Assembly: GCA_017621225.1 (NCBI GenBank)
Contig: JAGATN010000013.1
Span: forward strand, 62,001 to 126,000
Length of the DNA stretch: 64,000 nucleotides
Source: Muribaculaceae bacterium
Lineage (GTDB): Bacteria; Bacteroidota; Bacteroidia; Bacteroidales; Muribaculaceae
Direction of reading: 5' to 3'
The first letter of the stretch is position 1. The number at the start of each line of letters is the position of its first letter. Positions 135-51,888 of the stretch are shown one piece after another. A program made the translations under genes and the position numbers. The notes beneath the pieces were generated by a model. That model was not told the DNA's origin and made no database searches. It saw nothing but the letters and a program-made list of their open reading frames with translations.

Positions 135-142
135 TACTTTTG
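135..142 (+). promoter_or_regulatory. Bacteroidetes -7 promoter box of the Phe/Tyr operon
   Basis: TACTTTTG matches the Bacteroidetes -7 consensus TAnnTTTG. Transcription would begin near 147-150, about 15 bases before the leader ORF at 163. No clear -33 TTG is visible. Confidence 0.6.
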
Positions 143-162
143 CATCACAAATAAGAATATAT

Positions 163-240
163 ATGACTCGATTTTACGCATATTATTATTTTTCGTATTT
201 TTATTTTTACCAGAATAAAAACGGGATTTTATGTGCGTAA
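163..240 (+). CDS. Phe/Tyr-rich leader peptide of the aromatic amino acid operon
   Basis: A 25-codon ORF runs from ATG at 163 to TAA at 238. Residues 4-16 read F Y A Y Y Y F S Y F Y F Y, so 11 of 13 are Phe or Tyr (4 Phe, 7 Tyr in total). The C-terminal part is QNKNGILCA. The operon downstream encodes the enzymes that make exactly these two amino acids. This is the classic layout of an attenuator leader peptide, in which ribosome stalling at scarce Phe-tRNA or Tyr-tRNA codons decides between two RNA structures. The codons for residues 20-23 (222-231) are also the upstream strand of the predicted antiterminator. The ribosome-binding site is weak, as is usual in this phylum. The leader probably has no function as a free peptide. 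Confidence 0.85.
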   Translation: MTRFYAYYYFSYFYFYQNKNGILCA

Positions 241-288
241 TGCTCCAACAAACATTCATTGAATAAAATAACGATATGTAAAATCCCG
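222..288 (+). promoter_or_regulatory. Antiterminator hairpin of the Phe/Tyr attenuator
   Basis: CGGGATTTTA at 222-231, inside the leader ORF, is perfectly complementary to TAAAATCCCG at 279-288, and two G-U pairs can extend the stem. The downstream strand overlaps the 5' strand of the terminator (282-290), so the two structures exclude each other. A ribosome paused at residues 4-12 would leave 222-231 free, favouring this structure and read-through. A ribosome that reaches the stop codon at 238 would cover 222-231. Confidence 0.75.
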
Positions 289-317
289 AAGCCAACACGT
301 TTCGGGATTATTTTTTT
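282..317 (+). terminator. Attenuator terminator upstream of pheA
   Basis: AATCCCGAA (282-290) pairs perfectly with TTCGGGATT (301-309) across a 10-base loop, and ATTTTTTT follows at 310-317. This is an intrinsic terminator placed 10 bases before the pheA start codon, so it can only regulate expression of the operon. Confidence 0.85.
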
Positions 318-326
318 AATATAAAT

Positions 327-1175
327 ATGAAAAAGAGAGTTACAATACAAGGCGTTGCAGGCTGCTTCCATGATGCCGCAGCCCGCAATTATTTTGCAGG
401 CGAAGACATCGAGACCGTACCTTGCGATTCGTTTCCACAGCTGTTTGAATGCCTGGCCAACGATGCCTCACTCATAGGCATAGTGGCCATCGAGAATACC
501 ATAGCAGGTGCCTTGCTGCAAAACCATGAGCTATTGCGTCTAAGCAACCACACCATAATCGGTGAATACAAAATGCGAATATCGCACGTATTGGCCGCTC
601 TGCCGGGGCAAACCATCGACGACCTTACCGAAGTAAACTCCCACCCCATCGCATTGATGCAGTGCGAACAGTTTCTACGCAGGCATCCCAACCTCAAGAT
701 GATCGAAAAATTCGACACGGCGGGAAGCGCGGCCGAAATAGCCGACCAAAATCTGCTCGGTCACGGTGCCGTATGCGGCGAATATGCTGCCAACCTTTAC
801 GGCCTCGACATTCTTGAAAAAGGCATCGAAACCAACAAGCGCAACTTCACGCGCTTTCTGATACTTGCCGACCCTCTCATGGCCGACGAATTACGTCCTG
901 CACCCGAACAGCTCAACAAAGCATCGATAATGCTCACCACTCCTCACACCAACGGAGCTTTGTCGAAAGTTCTGACAATATTCTCCTTCTACGACATCAA
1001 CCTGTCGAAACTGCAATCAATGCCCATCATCGGACGCGAATGGGAATACCGATTCTACGTCGACTTCACATTCAAGAGCTACGTTCGCTACCATCAGGCC
1101 CTTGATGCCGTGCGCCCACTAATCAACGACTTAAAAATTCTTGGTGAATATAAAGAATACGAATATGAAATCTGA
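327..1175 (+). CDS. pheA: Prephenate dehydratase
   Basis: This 282-residue protein converts prephenate to phenylpyruvate, the committed step of Phe synthesis. Residues 3-180 form the catalytic domain; the conserved N-F-T-R-F segment at 173-177 contains the catalytic Thr. Residues about 198-275 form an ACT regulatory domain with the NGAL motif (209-212). The usual ESRP motif of the Phe-binding site reads QSMP at 230-233, so feedback control may differ from that of E. coli or Gram-positive enzymes. The length is normal for a monofunctional enzyme. It is the first gene after the attenuator and overlaps the next gene by 11 bases. Confidence 0.93.
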   Translation: MKKRVTIQGVAGCFHDAAARNYFAGEDIETVPCDSFPQLFECLANDASLIGIVAIENTIAGALLQNHELLRLSNHTIIGEYKMRISHVLAALPGQTIDDLTEVNSHPIALMQCEQFLRRHPNLKMIEKFDTAGSAAEIADQNLLGHGAVCGEYAANLYGLDILEKGIETNKRNFTRFLILADPLMADELRPAPEQLNKASIMLTTPHTNGALSKVLTIFSFYDINLSKLQSMPIIGREWEYRFYVDFTFKSYVRYHQALDAVRPLINDLKILGEYKEYEYEI

Positions 1176-2334
1176 AATCAAGCCGGCCGACAGAGTAGCC
1201 ACCATTCAGGAATACTACTTTTCGAGAAAACTTAAGGAAGTGGCTCAGCTCAACGCAATGGGCAAAGACATAGTGTCGTTAGGCATTGGCGGCCCCGACC
1301 GCCCGCCACACGCCGACGTAATCGAGACTCTTGCCAATGAAGCCGCGCGCGCAAACGCTCACAGCTATCAGCCCTACGTCGGACTTCCGGAGCTACGAAA
1401 GGCATTTGCAAAATGGTATGCGACGTGGTATGGCGTCAAGCTCGACCCCAACACCGAAATACAACCCCTCATAGGGTCGAAAGAAGGCATACTCCATACG
1501 TCGCTTGCATTTCTCAATCCGGGCGATGGAGTGTTGGTGCCCGATCCGGGATACCCCACTTACACGTCGGTCAGCAAGCTTGCTCAAGCCGAAATTTTCA
1601 ACTACGACCTTACGGCCGAAAACGGATGGATGCCCGACTTCGAGGCATTGGAAAAACTGCCGCTCGAACGCATAAAATTGATGTGGGTCAATTATCCGCA
1701 CATGCCCACCGGAACGCCTGCCACCGTCGAGCTTTTCGAACGGCTTGTGGCGTTTGGCAAGAAGCACAACATAGTCATAGCTCACGACAATCCTTACAGC
1801 TTCATACTAAACGACAAGCCATTAAGCCTGCTGAGCGTTCCCGGCGCAAAAGATATAGCCATCGAAATGAATTCACTTAGCAAAAGTCACAATATGGCCG
1901 GGTGGCGAGTGGCCATGCTTGCGTCGAACCCCACTTTCATAAACTGGATACTGAAGGTAAAGTCAAACATCGACTCCGGGCAATTCAAACCGGTCATGCT
2001 TGCCGCCGTAAAAGCCCTCGAAGCCAAGAAGGAATGGTACGATGAAGTCAACGCAACTTATGCCGCGCGCAGAAAAGTAGCTGAAAAAATAATGGAGGCG
2101 CTCGGATGCTCGTTTGATCCCGCACAAAAAGGATTATTCCTTTGGGGTCGGATACCTCAATCGGCCGAAAGCAGCGAATCATTCGCCGACAAGATATTGT
2201 ATGAAGGGCGCGTATTCCTTACCCCCGGATTCATATTCGGCAAGAATGGCGAACGATACATCAGGGTGTCACTATGCGCCACCATCGAGGCGATGACCGA
2301 GGCCCTAAACAGAATAAAATCACTGAACTTATAA
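1165..2334 (+). CDS. PLP-dependent class I/II aminotransferase, probably aromatic (Phe/Tyr)
   Basis: This is a fold-type I aminotransferase of 389 residues. The PLP lysine is K240 in NSLSK, followed by a typical MAGWRVAM segment. N176 in NYPHMPTG corresponds to the conserved NYPxNPTG. The ATG at 1165 is preferred to the in-frame TTG at 1141 because it gives a normal N-terminus and a short overlap with pheA. Its place between prephenate dehydratase and DAHP synthase suggests that it makes Phe and Tyr from phenylpyruvate and 4-hydroxyphenylpyruvate. The sequence also resembles aspartate and LL-diaminopimelate aminotransferases, so substrate choice is inferred from context. Confidence 0.85.
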   Translation: MKSEIKPADRVATIQEYYFSRKLKEVAQLNAMGKDIVSLGIGGPDRPPHADVIETLANEAARANAHSYQPYVGLPELRKAFAKWYATWYGVKLDPNTEIQPLIGSKEGILHTSLAFLNPGDGVLVPDPGYPTYTSVSKLAQAEIFNYDLTAENGWMPDFEALEKLPLERIKLMWVNYPHMPTGTPATVELFERLVAFGKKHNIVIAHDNPYSFILNDKPLSLLSVPGAKDIAIEMNSLSKSHNMAGWRVAMLASNPTFINWILKVKSNIDSGQFKPVMLAAVKALEAKKEWYDEVNATYAARRKVAEKIMEALGCSFDPAQKGLFLWGRIPQSAESSESFADKILYEGRVFLTPGFIFGKNGERYIRVSLCATIEAMTEALNRIKSLNL

Positions 2335-2346
2335 ACACTTACACAT

Positions 2347-3426
2347 ATGAAAGACTTAGAACCCATCGATTTGGAAGGCATTGATGCCAATAGCCCGCTA
2401 ATAATAGCCGGACCTTGCAGTGCCGAGACCGAAGAACAACTTTTATGCACTGCAAAAGAACTTGCCTCAAACGGAATAAAGATATTCCGCGCCGGCATTT
2501 GGAAACCGCGCACAAAACCGGGTGGCTTCGAAGGCGTCGGCGCACCGGGCCTGCAGTGGATGAAAGAGGTAAAGGAAACCACCGGAATGCTCACAGCTAC
2601 CGAAGTGGCTACCAAACAGCATGTCGAGGAAGCTCTCGCAGCAGGCATCGACATATTATGGATCGGCGCACGCACGTCGGCCAACCCGTTCGCAATGCAA
2701 GAGATAGCCGACACGCTCAAGGCATCGGGAGCAAAAGTGCCCGTATTGATTAAAAATCCGGTAAACCCCGATCTGGAACTATGGATCGGAGCAATACAGC
2801 GCATCTACAATGCCGGCATCCGTAAAATAGGTGCCATACACCGAGGTTTCAGCACATACGGCAAGCACCTCTACCGCAACATGCCCCAATGGCACATTCC
2901 GATAGAACTTCGCTTACGCTACCCCAACCTGCCCATAATCTGCGACCCCTCGCACATCGGTGGAAAGCGCGAACTCATAGCCCCATTATCGCAGCAAGCC
3001 CTCGACATGGGATTCAACGGACTTATAATCGAAAGCCACTGCAACCCCGACAATGCATGGAGCGACGCATCTCAACAGGTTACGCCTGAAATACTCAACT
3101 TCATCCTCAACACCCTCGTAATCCGCGACTCTAAGACCACTACCGAAAGCCTGACCCTATTGCGCCAGCAAATCGACCAAATCGACAACGAGCTGCTTGA
3201 AACACTGTCAAAGCGAATGAGAGTGTCGCGCGAGATTGGACAATATAAGAAAGAGCACCGCATGCCGGTCATTCAGGCCACGCGATACAACGATGTCATA
3301 CGCACCCGCGTCGATCTCGGAAAAGAGATGGGAATGGATGCAAACTTCCTGAAAACCATTTTACTCGCAATACATGACGAATCAGTCCGTCAGCAGATAG
3401 AAGTTCTTAACGATCGTACACGATGA
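2347..3426 (+). CDS. aroF: Bifunctional 3-deoxy-7-phosphoheptulonate synthase / chorismate mutase
   Basis: The protein is a fusion of 359 residues. Residues about 15-255 are a KdsA-like (type I beta) DAHP synthase with AGPCSAE (21-27), GIWKPRTKPGGFEG (50-63), CDPSHIGG (199-206) and ESHCNPDNAWSDA; C24, H203, E229 and D235 are plausible metal ligands. Residues about 265-350 are an AroQ-type chorismate mutase (LLRQQIDQID, SREIGQYKKEHRMPV). It catalyses the first step of the shikimate pathway and also the chorismate-to-prephenate step that feeds both neighbouring enzymes. A C-terminal mutase domain often acts as the allosteric sensor of such fusions. Twelve bases separate it from the aminotransferase, and it overlaps tyrA by four. 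Confidence 0.92.
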   Translation: MKDLEPIDLEGIDANSPLIIAGPCSAETEEQLLCTAKELASNGIKIFRAGIWKPRTKPGGFEGVGAPGLQWMKEVKETTGMLTATEVATKQHVEEALAAGIDILWIGARTSANPFAMQEIADTLKASGAKVPVLIKNPVNPDLELWIGAIQRIYNAGIRKIGAIHRGFSTYGKHLYRNMPQWHIPIELRLRYPNLPIICDPSHIGGKRELIAPLSQQALDMGFNGLIIESHCNPDNAWSDASQQVTPEILNFILNTLVIRDSKTTTESLTLLRQQIDQIDNELLETLSKRMRVSREIGQYKKEHRMPVIQATRYNDVIRTRVDLGKEMGMDANFLKTILLAIHDESVRQQIEVLNDRTR

Positions 3427-4196
3427 AAATATTGATATTAGGAGCCGGAAAAATGGGGTCGTTCTTCAACGATGTCCTATCGTTTGACCACGAAATGGCC
3501 ATATTCGACAATGACCCCAAACGACTTCGCTTCGCATACAACGCCCAACGATTTTCGACGCTCGAGGAAATCGATGAATTCAAACCCGAACTGGTGATAA
3601 ATGCAGTAACGGTAAAATATACCATCGATGCATTCAATCAGATATTGCCGCATATCCCCCAACAATGCATAATATCCGACATCGCATCGGTAAAGACCGG
3701 ACTACCTGAATTTTATGCCCAATGCCAACATCCGTTCGTGTCGACGCACCCCATGTTCGGCCCCACTTTCGCATCGCTCAGCAATCTGGCAAGCGAAAAC
3801 GCCATAATAATAACCGAAAGCGATCATCTTGGCAAAGTGTTTTTCAAAGACCTGTACAACCAGCTTCATCTTCACATCGAAGAATACAGCTTTGCCGAGC
3901 ATGACGAAACCATAGCTTATTCACTGTCGATACCTTTCGCGTCAACGTTGGTGTTCGCTTCGATAATGAAGCACCAGAACGCCCCGGGCACCACCTTCAA
4001 GCGACACATGGCCATTGCCCACGGGCTGATGTCGGAAGACGATTTTCTGCTCAGCGAAATATTGTTCAACCCCAACACGCCCTCACAATTACAGCAAATA
4101 CAGGAGCAACTATCAACGCTTCAGGACATTGTGAAGCAGCGCGACTCCGATCGCATGAAACAGTATCTATCGAAGGTAAGAGACAACCTCAAATAA
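3423..4196 (+). CDS. tyrA: Prephenate dehydrogenase
   Basis: This 257-residue NAD(P)-dependent enzyme oxidises prephenate to 4-hydroxyphenylpyruvate for Tyr synthesis. The Rossmann motif is ILGAGKMGSFF (4-14). The THPMFGP segment, typical of prephenate dehydrogenases, carries the substrate-contacting His. The protein lacks a C-terminal ACT domain and is short for the family. Translation is coupled to the previous gene through an ATGA overlap at 3423-3426. It is the last gene of the operon, and a new promoter follows. Confidence 0.9.
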   Translation: MKILILGAGKMGSFFNDVLSFDHEMAIFDNDPKRLRFAYNAQRFSTLEEIDEFKPELVINAVTVKYTIDAFNQILPHIPQQCIISDIASVKTGLPEFYAQCQHPFVSTHPMFGPTFASLSNLASENAIIITESDHLGKVFFKDLYNQLHLHIEEYSFAEHDETIAYSLSIPFASTLVFASIMKHQNAPGTTFKRHMAIAHGLMSEDDFLLSEILFNPNTPSQLQQIQEQLSTLQDIVKQRDSDRMKQYLSKVRDNLK

Positions 4197-51417: not shown

Positions 51418-51523
51418 TGATTTACCCGTAAATTTTTCACTAAGTTTAGTCACTTTCAAATACGTGATTTAATAATTCGTTAATTTCAATTGTGTTCCGT
51501 TTTCACGGCGCAAATACAAAAAA

Positions 51524-51888
51524 GCAGCCGGACTATAAGCCGAGTTATGTCGTTGCAACGATATCATCATCCATTACGGATGGATCCATAGCAACGTTTC
51601 GTCATTTATCTAAGCAGCCTACCCCCCGGCAATGGACGAGCAACCCTTGAATGCCGGTATACTTGGCCTTGCAACCCATAAGACGTGCGGCGCAATATGT
51701 CGCCATACTGCCCGGTGGGCTCTTACCCCGCCTTTTCACCCTTACCGCGATGACTCACGGCGGTCGTTTTCTGTCACGTTACTCTACCATCGCTGATAGC
51801 TCACCGTTAGTGAATATGGTGCTCTGCGTTGCCCGGACTTTCCTCTCACCGCTCGTGCGTCGATGAGCGACGAAACGCCCGACTGCGC
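51524..51888 (-). ncRNA. rnpB: RNase P RNA, bacterial type A
   Basis: The minus strand carries the conserved RNase P RNA core. GAGAGGAAAGTCCGGGC is near the 5' end (about 51835-51851), GGTAAGGGTGAAAAGG is near 51732-51750, and GCCGGGGGGTAGGC is near 51615-51640. The ends can form P1: GCAGTCGG at the 5' end pairs with CCGGCTGC at the 3' end. A run of T residues follows at the 3' end (51518-51523), consistent with termination. The extents are approximate by a few bases. A promoter box lies just upstream. Confidence 0.93.

Follow-up and report, generated by a model that had tools for sequence, protein, structure and literature searches.

The closest described counterpart of the element reported here is the leader of the Escherichia coli pheA gene (pheL-pheA; Rfam RF01859). 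A leader ORF is found in both, and in both the arms of the RNA helices follow in the order P1 5′, P2 5′, P1 3′, P2 3′/P3 5′, P3 3′. The E. coli leader peptide is Phe-only and stands before pheA alone, with tyrA and aroF adjoining on the opposite strand. Some other E. coli leaders combine codons for different amino acids: thrL senses Thr and Ile, and ilvL is another such multi-amino-acid leader. Within the Bacteroidota, the Bacteroid-trp RNA is linked to trp operons. This RNA (RF01692) is described as an Rfam motif of the Bacteroidetes in the text of one report (PMC2864571). Leader-peptide attenuation has been suggested upstream of amino-acid operons in Flavobacterium psychrophilum, a member of the same phylum, in a report whose main text contains neither the word ‘phenylalanine’ nor the word ‘tyrosine’ (PMC9723704), and leader-peptide-like ORFs are mentioned for Bacteroides thetaiotaomicron in the text of another (PMC7366714). 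No Phe/Tyr attenuator in the Bacteroidota was found in the literature searched; as subscription papers lay mostly outside its scope, this is weak evidence for novelty. An initial annotation of the DNA analysed here stated that known examples of such attenuators come mostly from Proteobacteria, a statement that needs softening in view of the precedent suggested in the F. psychrophilum text (PMC9723704).

The window, a stretch of 64,000 nucleotides that starts at position 62001 of contig 28 in the 2.5-Mb genome of a Muribaculaceae bacterium, begins with the 3′ end of a hisS-like gene (identified from its translation) and also carries a class A bacterial RNase P RNA at 51520-51886 on the minus strand. 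Four adjacent genes encode prephenate dehydratase, a class I/II aminotransferase, a DAHP synthase fused to chorismate mutase and prephenate dehydrogenase (Table 1), and the operon therefore serves both Phe and Tyr. Ahead of pheA lies a leader ORF of 25 codons with its stop codon at 238-240; residues 4-16 of the encoded peptide (FYAYYYFSYFYFY) comprise 11 Phe/Tyr residues out of 13 (four Phe, seven Tyr). The ORF is preceded by a match to TAnnTTTG, which we take to be the Bacteroidota -7 consensus, and transcription would start just 3′ of position 142. The window leader differs from pheL in having both Phe and Tyr codons for one four-gene operon and in having no Rfam match.

Table 1. Leader, helices and operon genes in the window (positions are those of the window)
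Feature	Position	Strand	Sequence or evidence
Promoter -7 element	135..142	+	TACTTTTG (TAnnTTTG)
Leader peptide ORF	163..240	+	MTRFYAYYYFSYFYFYQNKNGILCA; Phe/Tyr codons 4, 5, 7-10, 12-16
Helix P1, strand 1	174..183	+	TTACGCATAT, within codons 4-7
Helix P1, strand 2	231..240	+	ATGTGCGTAA; overlaps 3′ end of P2 5′ arm
Antiterminator P2, 5′ arm	222..233	+	CGGGATTTTATG
Antiterminator P2, 3′ arm	277..288	+	TGTAAAATCCCG; 282-288 common to terminator
Intrinsic terminator P3, 5′ arm	282..292	+	
Intrinsic terminator P3, 3′ arm	299..309	+	
Terminator T-run	311..317	+	Nine bases 5′ of pheA ATG (327)
pheA, prephenate dehydratase	327..1175	+	Pfam PF00800, E 3.8e-50
Class I/II aminotransferase	1165..2334	+	Pfam PF00155, E 2.8e-59
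DAHP synthase fused to chorismate mutase	2347..3426	+	Pfam PF00793 + PF01817
tyrA, prephenate dehydrogenase	3423..4196	+	Pfam PF02153, E 4.3e-11

Between the ORF and pheA, two mutually exclusive helices share bases. The core of the antiterminator (222-231 with 279-288) is a perfect 10-bp helix that G-U pairs lengthen to 222-235:275-288; that of the terminator (282-290 with 301-309) is perfect as well, and one G-U pair is included in its extended form, 282-292:299-309. The initial annotation had recorded these two cores as well as the promoter box, the 25-codon ORF and its 11 Phe/Tyr codons in residues 4-16, and all were found at the positions it gave. A helix search revealed a third helix, P1 (174-183 with 231-240), that was absent from the annotation and joins the first control codons to the 3′ end of the ORF. 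This helix corresponds to the classical 1:2 helix and completes the 1:2/2:3/3:4 set; P1 contains an Ala GCA codon both in E. coli pheL (TTCGCATTC) and in the window leader (TACGCATAT). Because the G-U pairs of P2 reach 233-235, P1 and P2 overlap and compete in the window. An H-type pseudoknot of P1 and P2, whose arms are adjacent in many leaders, was considered and rejected: the 3′ strand of P1 is covered by the extended P2 in the window, so the two are in competition there.

Predicted folds of the whole leader contain P1 and P3. Untranslated RNA ending at 288 or 298 is predicted to fold P2 and not P1, which counts against the proposed mechanism in that it leaves the ribosome-free state uncertain. 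P2 is also predicted in RNA that ends at 298 and is masked as far as 210 or 221; with a mask extending to 252, nothing folds ahead of the terminator. When masking extends to 210 but the full terminator is present, folding again yields the terminator as the minimum-energy structure, so relief of termination would rest on the order of transcription. The switch in other attenuators also depends on this order. From these model folds, the role of P1 in RNA that is not being translated, and its competition with P2 there, is uncertain.

We consider it very likely that the element is a ribosome-mediated transcription attenuator that senses the charging of tRNA-Phe and tRNA-Tyr. The window has a short ORF enriched for codons of the amino acids that the operon makes, an intrinsic terminator between this ORF and the first gene (recognised by its shape and by covariation), an antiterminator that shares bases with the terminator and has its 5′ arm within reach of a stalled ribosome, and a 1:2 helix linking the control codons to the region of that arm. 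When both charged tRNAs are plentiful, the ribosome would pass the 11 control codons to reach the stop codon and would cover 222-233; 282-292 would then pair with 299-309, the terminator would form and RNA polymerase would halt near 317. When Phe or Tyr is short, the ribosome would instead stall within codons 4-16, blocking P1 (174-183:231-240), whereupon 222-233 would pair with 277-288 and prevent the terminator, and pheA, the aminotransferase, the DAHP synthase/chorismate mutase and tyrA would be transcribed.

Related loci were collected by scanning genome contigs for PheA. The best 80 of 128 relatives were kept, mostly from Muribaculaceae and other Bacteroidales. An order-level scan gave a match in 63 of 148 genomes, from which 49 new loci (L082-L130; L082 repeats L024 and is uncounted) were read in their upstream DNA and 14 matches were left unread. 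In a phylum-level scan, 172 of 198 genomes had a match and the best-scoring 29 new loci were read, so that the phylum-wide picture leans toward nearer relatives. Short F/Y-rich ORFs and terminators are present in most of the loci read; the leader is carried, for example, by L016, from the cultured relative Duncaniella muris. An ORF with at least seven F/Y in 12 residues, at most 400 nt upstream of pheA, is found in 117 of 154 Bacteroidota loci (76%), the window included and four loci with short upstream sequence (L010, L044, L046, L105) skipped, as against 33 of 3080 dinucleotide shuffles (1.07%). One of the 117, L078, is a low-complexity artefact, retained in this count and in the strict-terminator count given below and dropped from the set of 116 leaders. 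In 96 of these 116 leaders TAnnTTTG occurs in the 80 nt that precede the leader ORF, at a median of 30 nt 5′ of the start codon, compared with 332 of 5800 mononucleotide shuffles. A terminator is present by a loose rule in 115 of 121 loci with a leader and in 7 of 33 without one, the same rule finding terminator-like hairpins in 86 of 770 shuffles. By a strict rule, 12 of 122 leaders have no terminator, and most of these 12 show one by eye.

At 33 of the 154 loci (L078 among them) there is no leader with at least six F/Y in 12 residues. In 12 of the 33 (L032 and 11 loci like it) the upstream DNA is similar to the end of the methionine-synthase-like L032 ORF, and in four more (L049, L063, L066 and L067) to the end of the GTPase-like L066 ORF, both names being drawn from translation alone; in these two sets of loci the operon may be under another promoter. 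At L076 a terminator hairpin (L076:4940-4980) stands before pheA with no leader ORF, a clear remnant and perhaps a decaying attenuator.

Further observations were made on these loci. Two loci, L001 (titled Pseudoflavonifractor) and L017 (titled Lachnospiraceae), have pheA genes 84% and 78% identical to that of the window and the same kind of leader, and their record titles look mislabelled. Genes for tRNAs lie near the pheA leader at L111:307-380, L130:182-255 and L131:116-200. A Trp codon falls in the densest stretch of 12 of the 116 leaders (L109, L110, L118, L124, L128, L134, L140, L144, L146, L150, L151 and L159), leaders that may sense Phe, Tyr and Trp alike.

Covariation was examined in 105 leaders grouped in 64 clusters, by comparing the pairing of each arm with its own partner and with the partners from other clusters over 5000 permutations; five leaders in which the automatic helix assignment looked wrong (L096, L102, L110, L125 and L129) were set aside. 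Pairing with the own partner is strongly favoured in each helix (P1, z 8.0; P2, z 17.4; P3, z 22.9; 0/5000 permutations each). Of two controls, the late F/Y codons set against the P1 partner gave z 0.3 (1876/5000) and the P1 codons set against a region farther downstream z 2.0 (128/5000). Some leaders show a weak P1 or no evident one. Pairs were also counted in a MAFFT alignment of 36 leaders against 500 shuffles. For P1 and P3 combined, the cells paired, the cells changed on both sides and the covariation score all exceed 500 of 500 shuffles, while the number of pairs with a change on both sides was reached by 80 of 500 and that of further pair types by 8; at one P1 pair, C-G has changed to U-A in 10 sequences. 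For P2, whose arm is partly misaligned, the five measures were reached by 1, 113, 1, 28 and 4 of 500 shuffles, the 113 referring to pairs changed on both sides and the final 4 to the covariation score.

The spacing of these elements fits the proposed mechanism. The median distance from the final F/Y codon in the densest 12-residue stretch to the start of the P2 arm is 12 nt (interquartile range 9-14, n = 105), and the end of the leader stop codon falls between 7 nt before and 43 nt after that start; given the footprint of a ribosome, this geometry fits one stalled at the control codons leaving the P2 arm free and one at the stop codon covering it. The initial annotation had put forward an attenuator in which starvation for either amino acid lets the operon through, and had suggested searching relatives for its parts. 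Anatomy, conservation and covariation support this reading, with the F/Y ORF, antiterminator and terminator kept in the Bacteroidales and beyond; the pattern that it named as counting against attenuation, a terminator retained where the F/Y codons have gone, is clear in one locus, L076, leader and terminator otherwise occurring together.

How closely do the control codons follow the genes downstream? At least two Phe and at least two Tyr are present in the densest 12 residues of 112 of the 116 leaders, and the four exceptions (L084, L091, L123 and L129) prompted a test of codons against operon content. At L084, L091 and L129, and at L126 with its weaker Phe-only leader, the 5.1 to 6.9 kb downstream of pheA yielded no aminotransferase, DAHP synthase or tyrA gene. 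L123 precedes a full operon and is a tandem locus, whose first module has Tyr codons and whose second has eight Phe and one Tyr. Leaders with several Tyr codons precede pheA together with one or more of the aminotransferase, DAHP synthase and tyrA genes. E. coli follows the same rule, its pheA standing alone behind a Phe-only pheL.

The four families concerned were searched and one rule was then applied to all loci. Every leader of an operonic pheA has at least two Tyr (110/110; 55 more loci have no leader by the rule), whereas 14 of 15 leaders of a stand-alone pheA have at most one (14 more have no leader by the rule); the arrangement of two loci is undecided. The association of Tyr codons with arrangement gives a Fisher p of 1.2e-17, a figure that ignores kinship, many rows being close relatives. 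In this count L138, a gene fusion, was assigned to the operon class by hand, L123 was scored as mixed, presumably owing to the first of its tandem modules, and L314 was included though its ORF resembles the GTG-start ORFs of relatives lacking a leader and seems spurious; the leader of L084 fails the rule but can be seen by eye; five loci from the same genome as a counted row (L278, L302, L312, L313 and L318) and one cut by the start of its contig (L322) were left out. A FastTree phylogeny of PheA with 126 rows, to which L084 was added by hand, contains four changes of arrangement and four of leader type. Of four independent pairs, an average of 3.7 show the two traits in agreement and none shows them opposed (sign test p 0.125, the lowest value that four pairs can give and too few pairs for significance). 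Families f16 and f92 each hold both states, but their PheA proteins lie in different parts of the tree and so neither family offers a clean switch. The correspondence of Tyr codons with the genes of the operon backs the proposal of the initial annotation that one peptide senses both Phe and Tyr. Its remark that sensing both end products is uncommon needs toning down, since the peptide of E. coli thrL provides a precedent for a leader that responds to two end products; thrL and ilvL concern other amino acids, and their likeness to the window leader is one of codons.

Some loci carry two such modules. Two F/Y ORFs, each with its own terminator, lie upstream of pheA in nine of 153 loci scanned (L086, L087, L102, L116, L117, L118, L123, L131 and L154; the second terminator of L102 was called by eye), and L091 and L111 have two F/Y ORFs of which the first has no terminator. 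With terminator arms entered by hand, pairing within a module exceeded pairing across modules in 16 of 18 comparisons, L154 and L123 each failing once. The Salmonella mgtCBR leader likewise has two leader ORFs in series and is presented in the text of one report as a singular example of tandem attenuators for different signals (PMC3641672). By the same text its modules answer to ATP and proline (PMC3641672), whereas in the nine loci here both modules are F/Y-rich.

Several other explanations of the locus can be weighed against attenuation. Were control translational, the hairpin would mask the pheA start without ending transcription, and the window stem does end only 17 nt 5′ of the pheA ATG; across 115 loci, however, this distance ranges from 6 to 143 nt (median 20; more than 40 nt in 17%), a variability that argues against a hidden start, which needs a fixed short distance. 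The hairpins also carry T-rich tails (part of the rule by which they were found, and plain by eye as well), and we regard translational control as improbable. That runs of F/Y codons in AT-rich DNA should coincide with a hairpin by chance is harder still to credit. Such runs are not rare, the window's own genome having 47 sites with five consecutive F/Y codons against 76 for a reversed control pattern, but a scripted scan of that genome (30 sites, then the other 17 in 13 stretches) found the pheA run to be the only one of the 47 that lies in a short closed ORF with a terminator behind it, and the leader threshold is reached by about one shuffle in a hundred as against three-quarters of the loci.

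It is similarly hard to believe that the ORF encodes a small functional peptide with incidental hairpins. The sequence MTRFYAYY or a near variant recurs in many of the best 80 loci, as a conserved peptide might; against this, Phe and Tyr interchange, short forms lack the C-terminus while the RNA arms persist 3′ of the stop codon, and those arms covary. Control by a T-box, a riboswitch or another described RNA family might be expected where an amino-acid operon has a long, structured leader, and a Thr_leader match is present at 250-316, at 16 bits where 55 are needed. At gathering score, however, Rfam 15 (the RF01859 Phe_leader covariance model included) finds no family in the window leader or in the leaders of 34 relatives, the best loose match to the window leader scoring 23.3 bits against a required 60 and the 34 Bacteroidota loci yielding tRNAs only, whereas E. 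coli pheL is recovered at 132 bits. The RF01692 Bacteroid-trp model has no match in the window's genome; in a control search it was found in one of 14 genomes (Bacteroides ihuae). A described RNA family is accordingly a most improbable controller of the operon. Judged from the features that could be tested in its sequence, all of which it displays, the locus would work like a ribosome-mediated attenuator of the pheL layout, in a new Phe/Tyr version.

Beyond the window, these loci probably represent a widespread, uncatalogued family of Bacteroidota pheA attenuators in which the control codons are rewritten as operon content changes and which is sometimes doubled into serial gates for a single signal. 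In this reading, leaders would carry Phe and Tyr codons when pheA has DAHP synthase and/or tyrA or the aminotransferase as operon partners, and Phe codons only when pheA stands alone. Textbook attenuation would then be a common control of Phe and Tyr synthesis in a major gut and environmental phylum for which we found only hints in the literature. The tandem forms would offer a chance to ask if serial attenuators sharpen the response to starvation, and the link between codons and operon would provide a natural experiment on whether control codons are selected to match the products of the operon.
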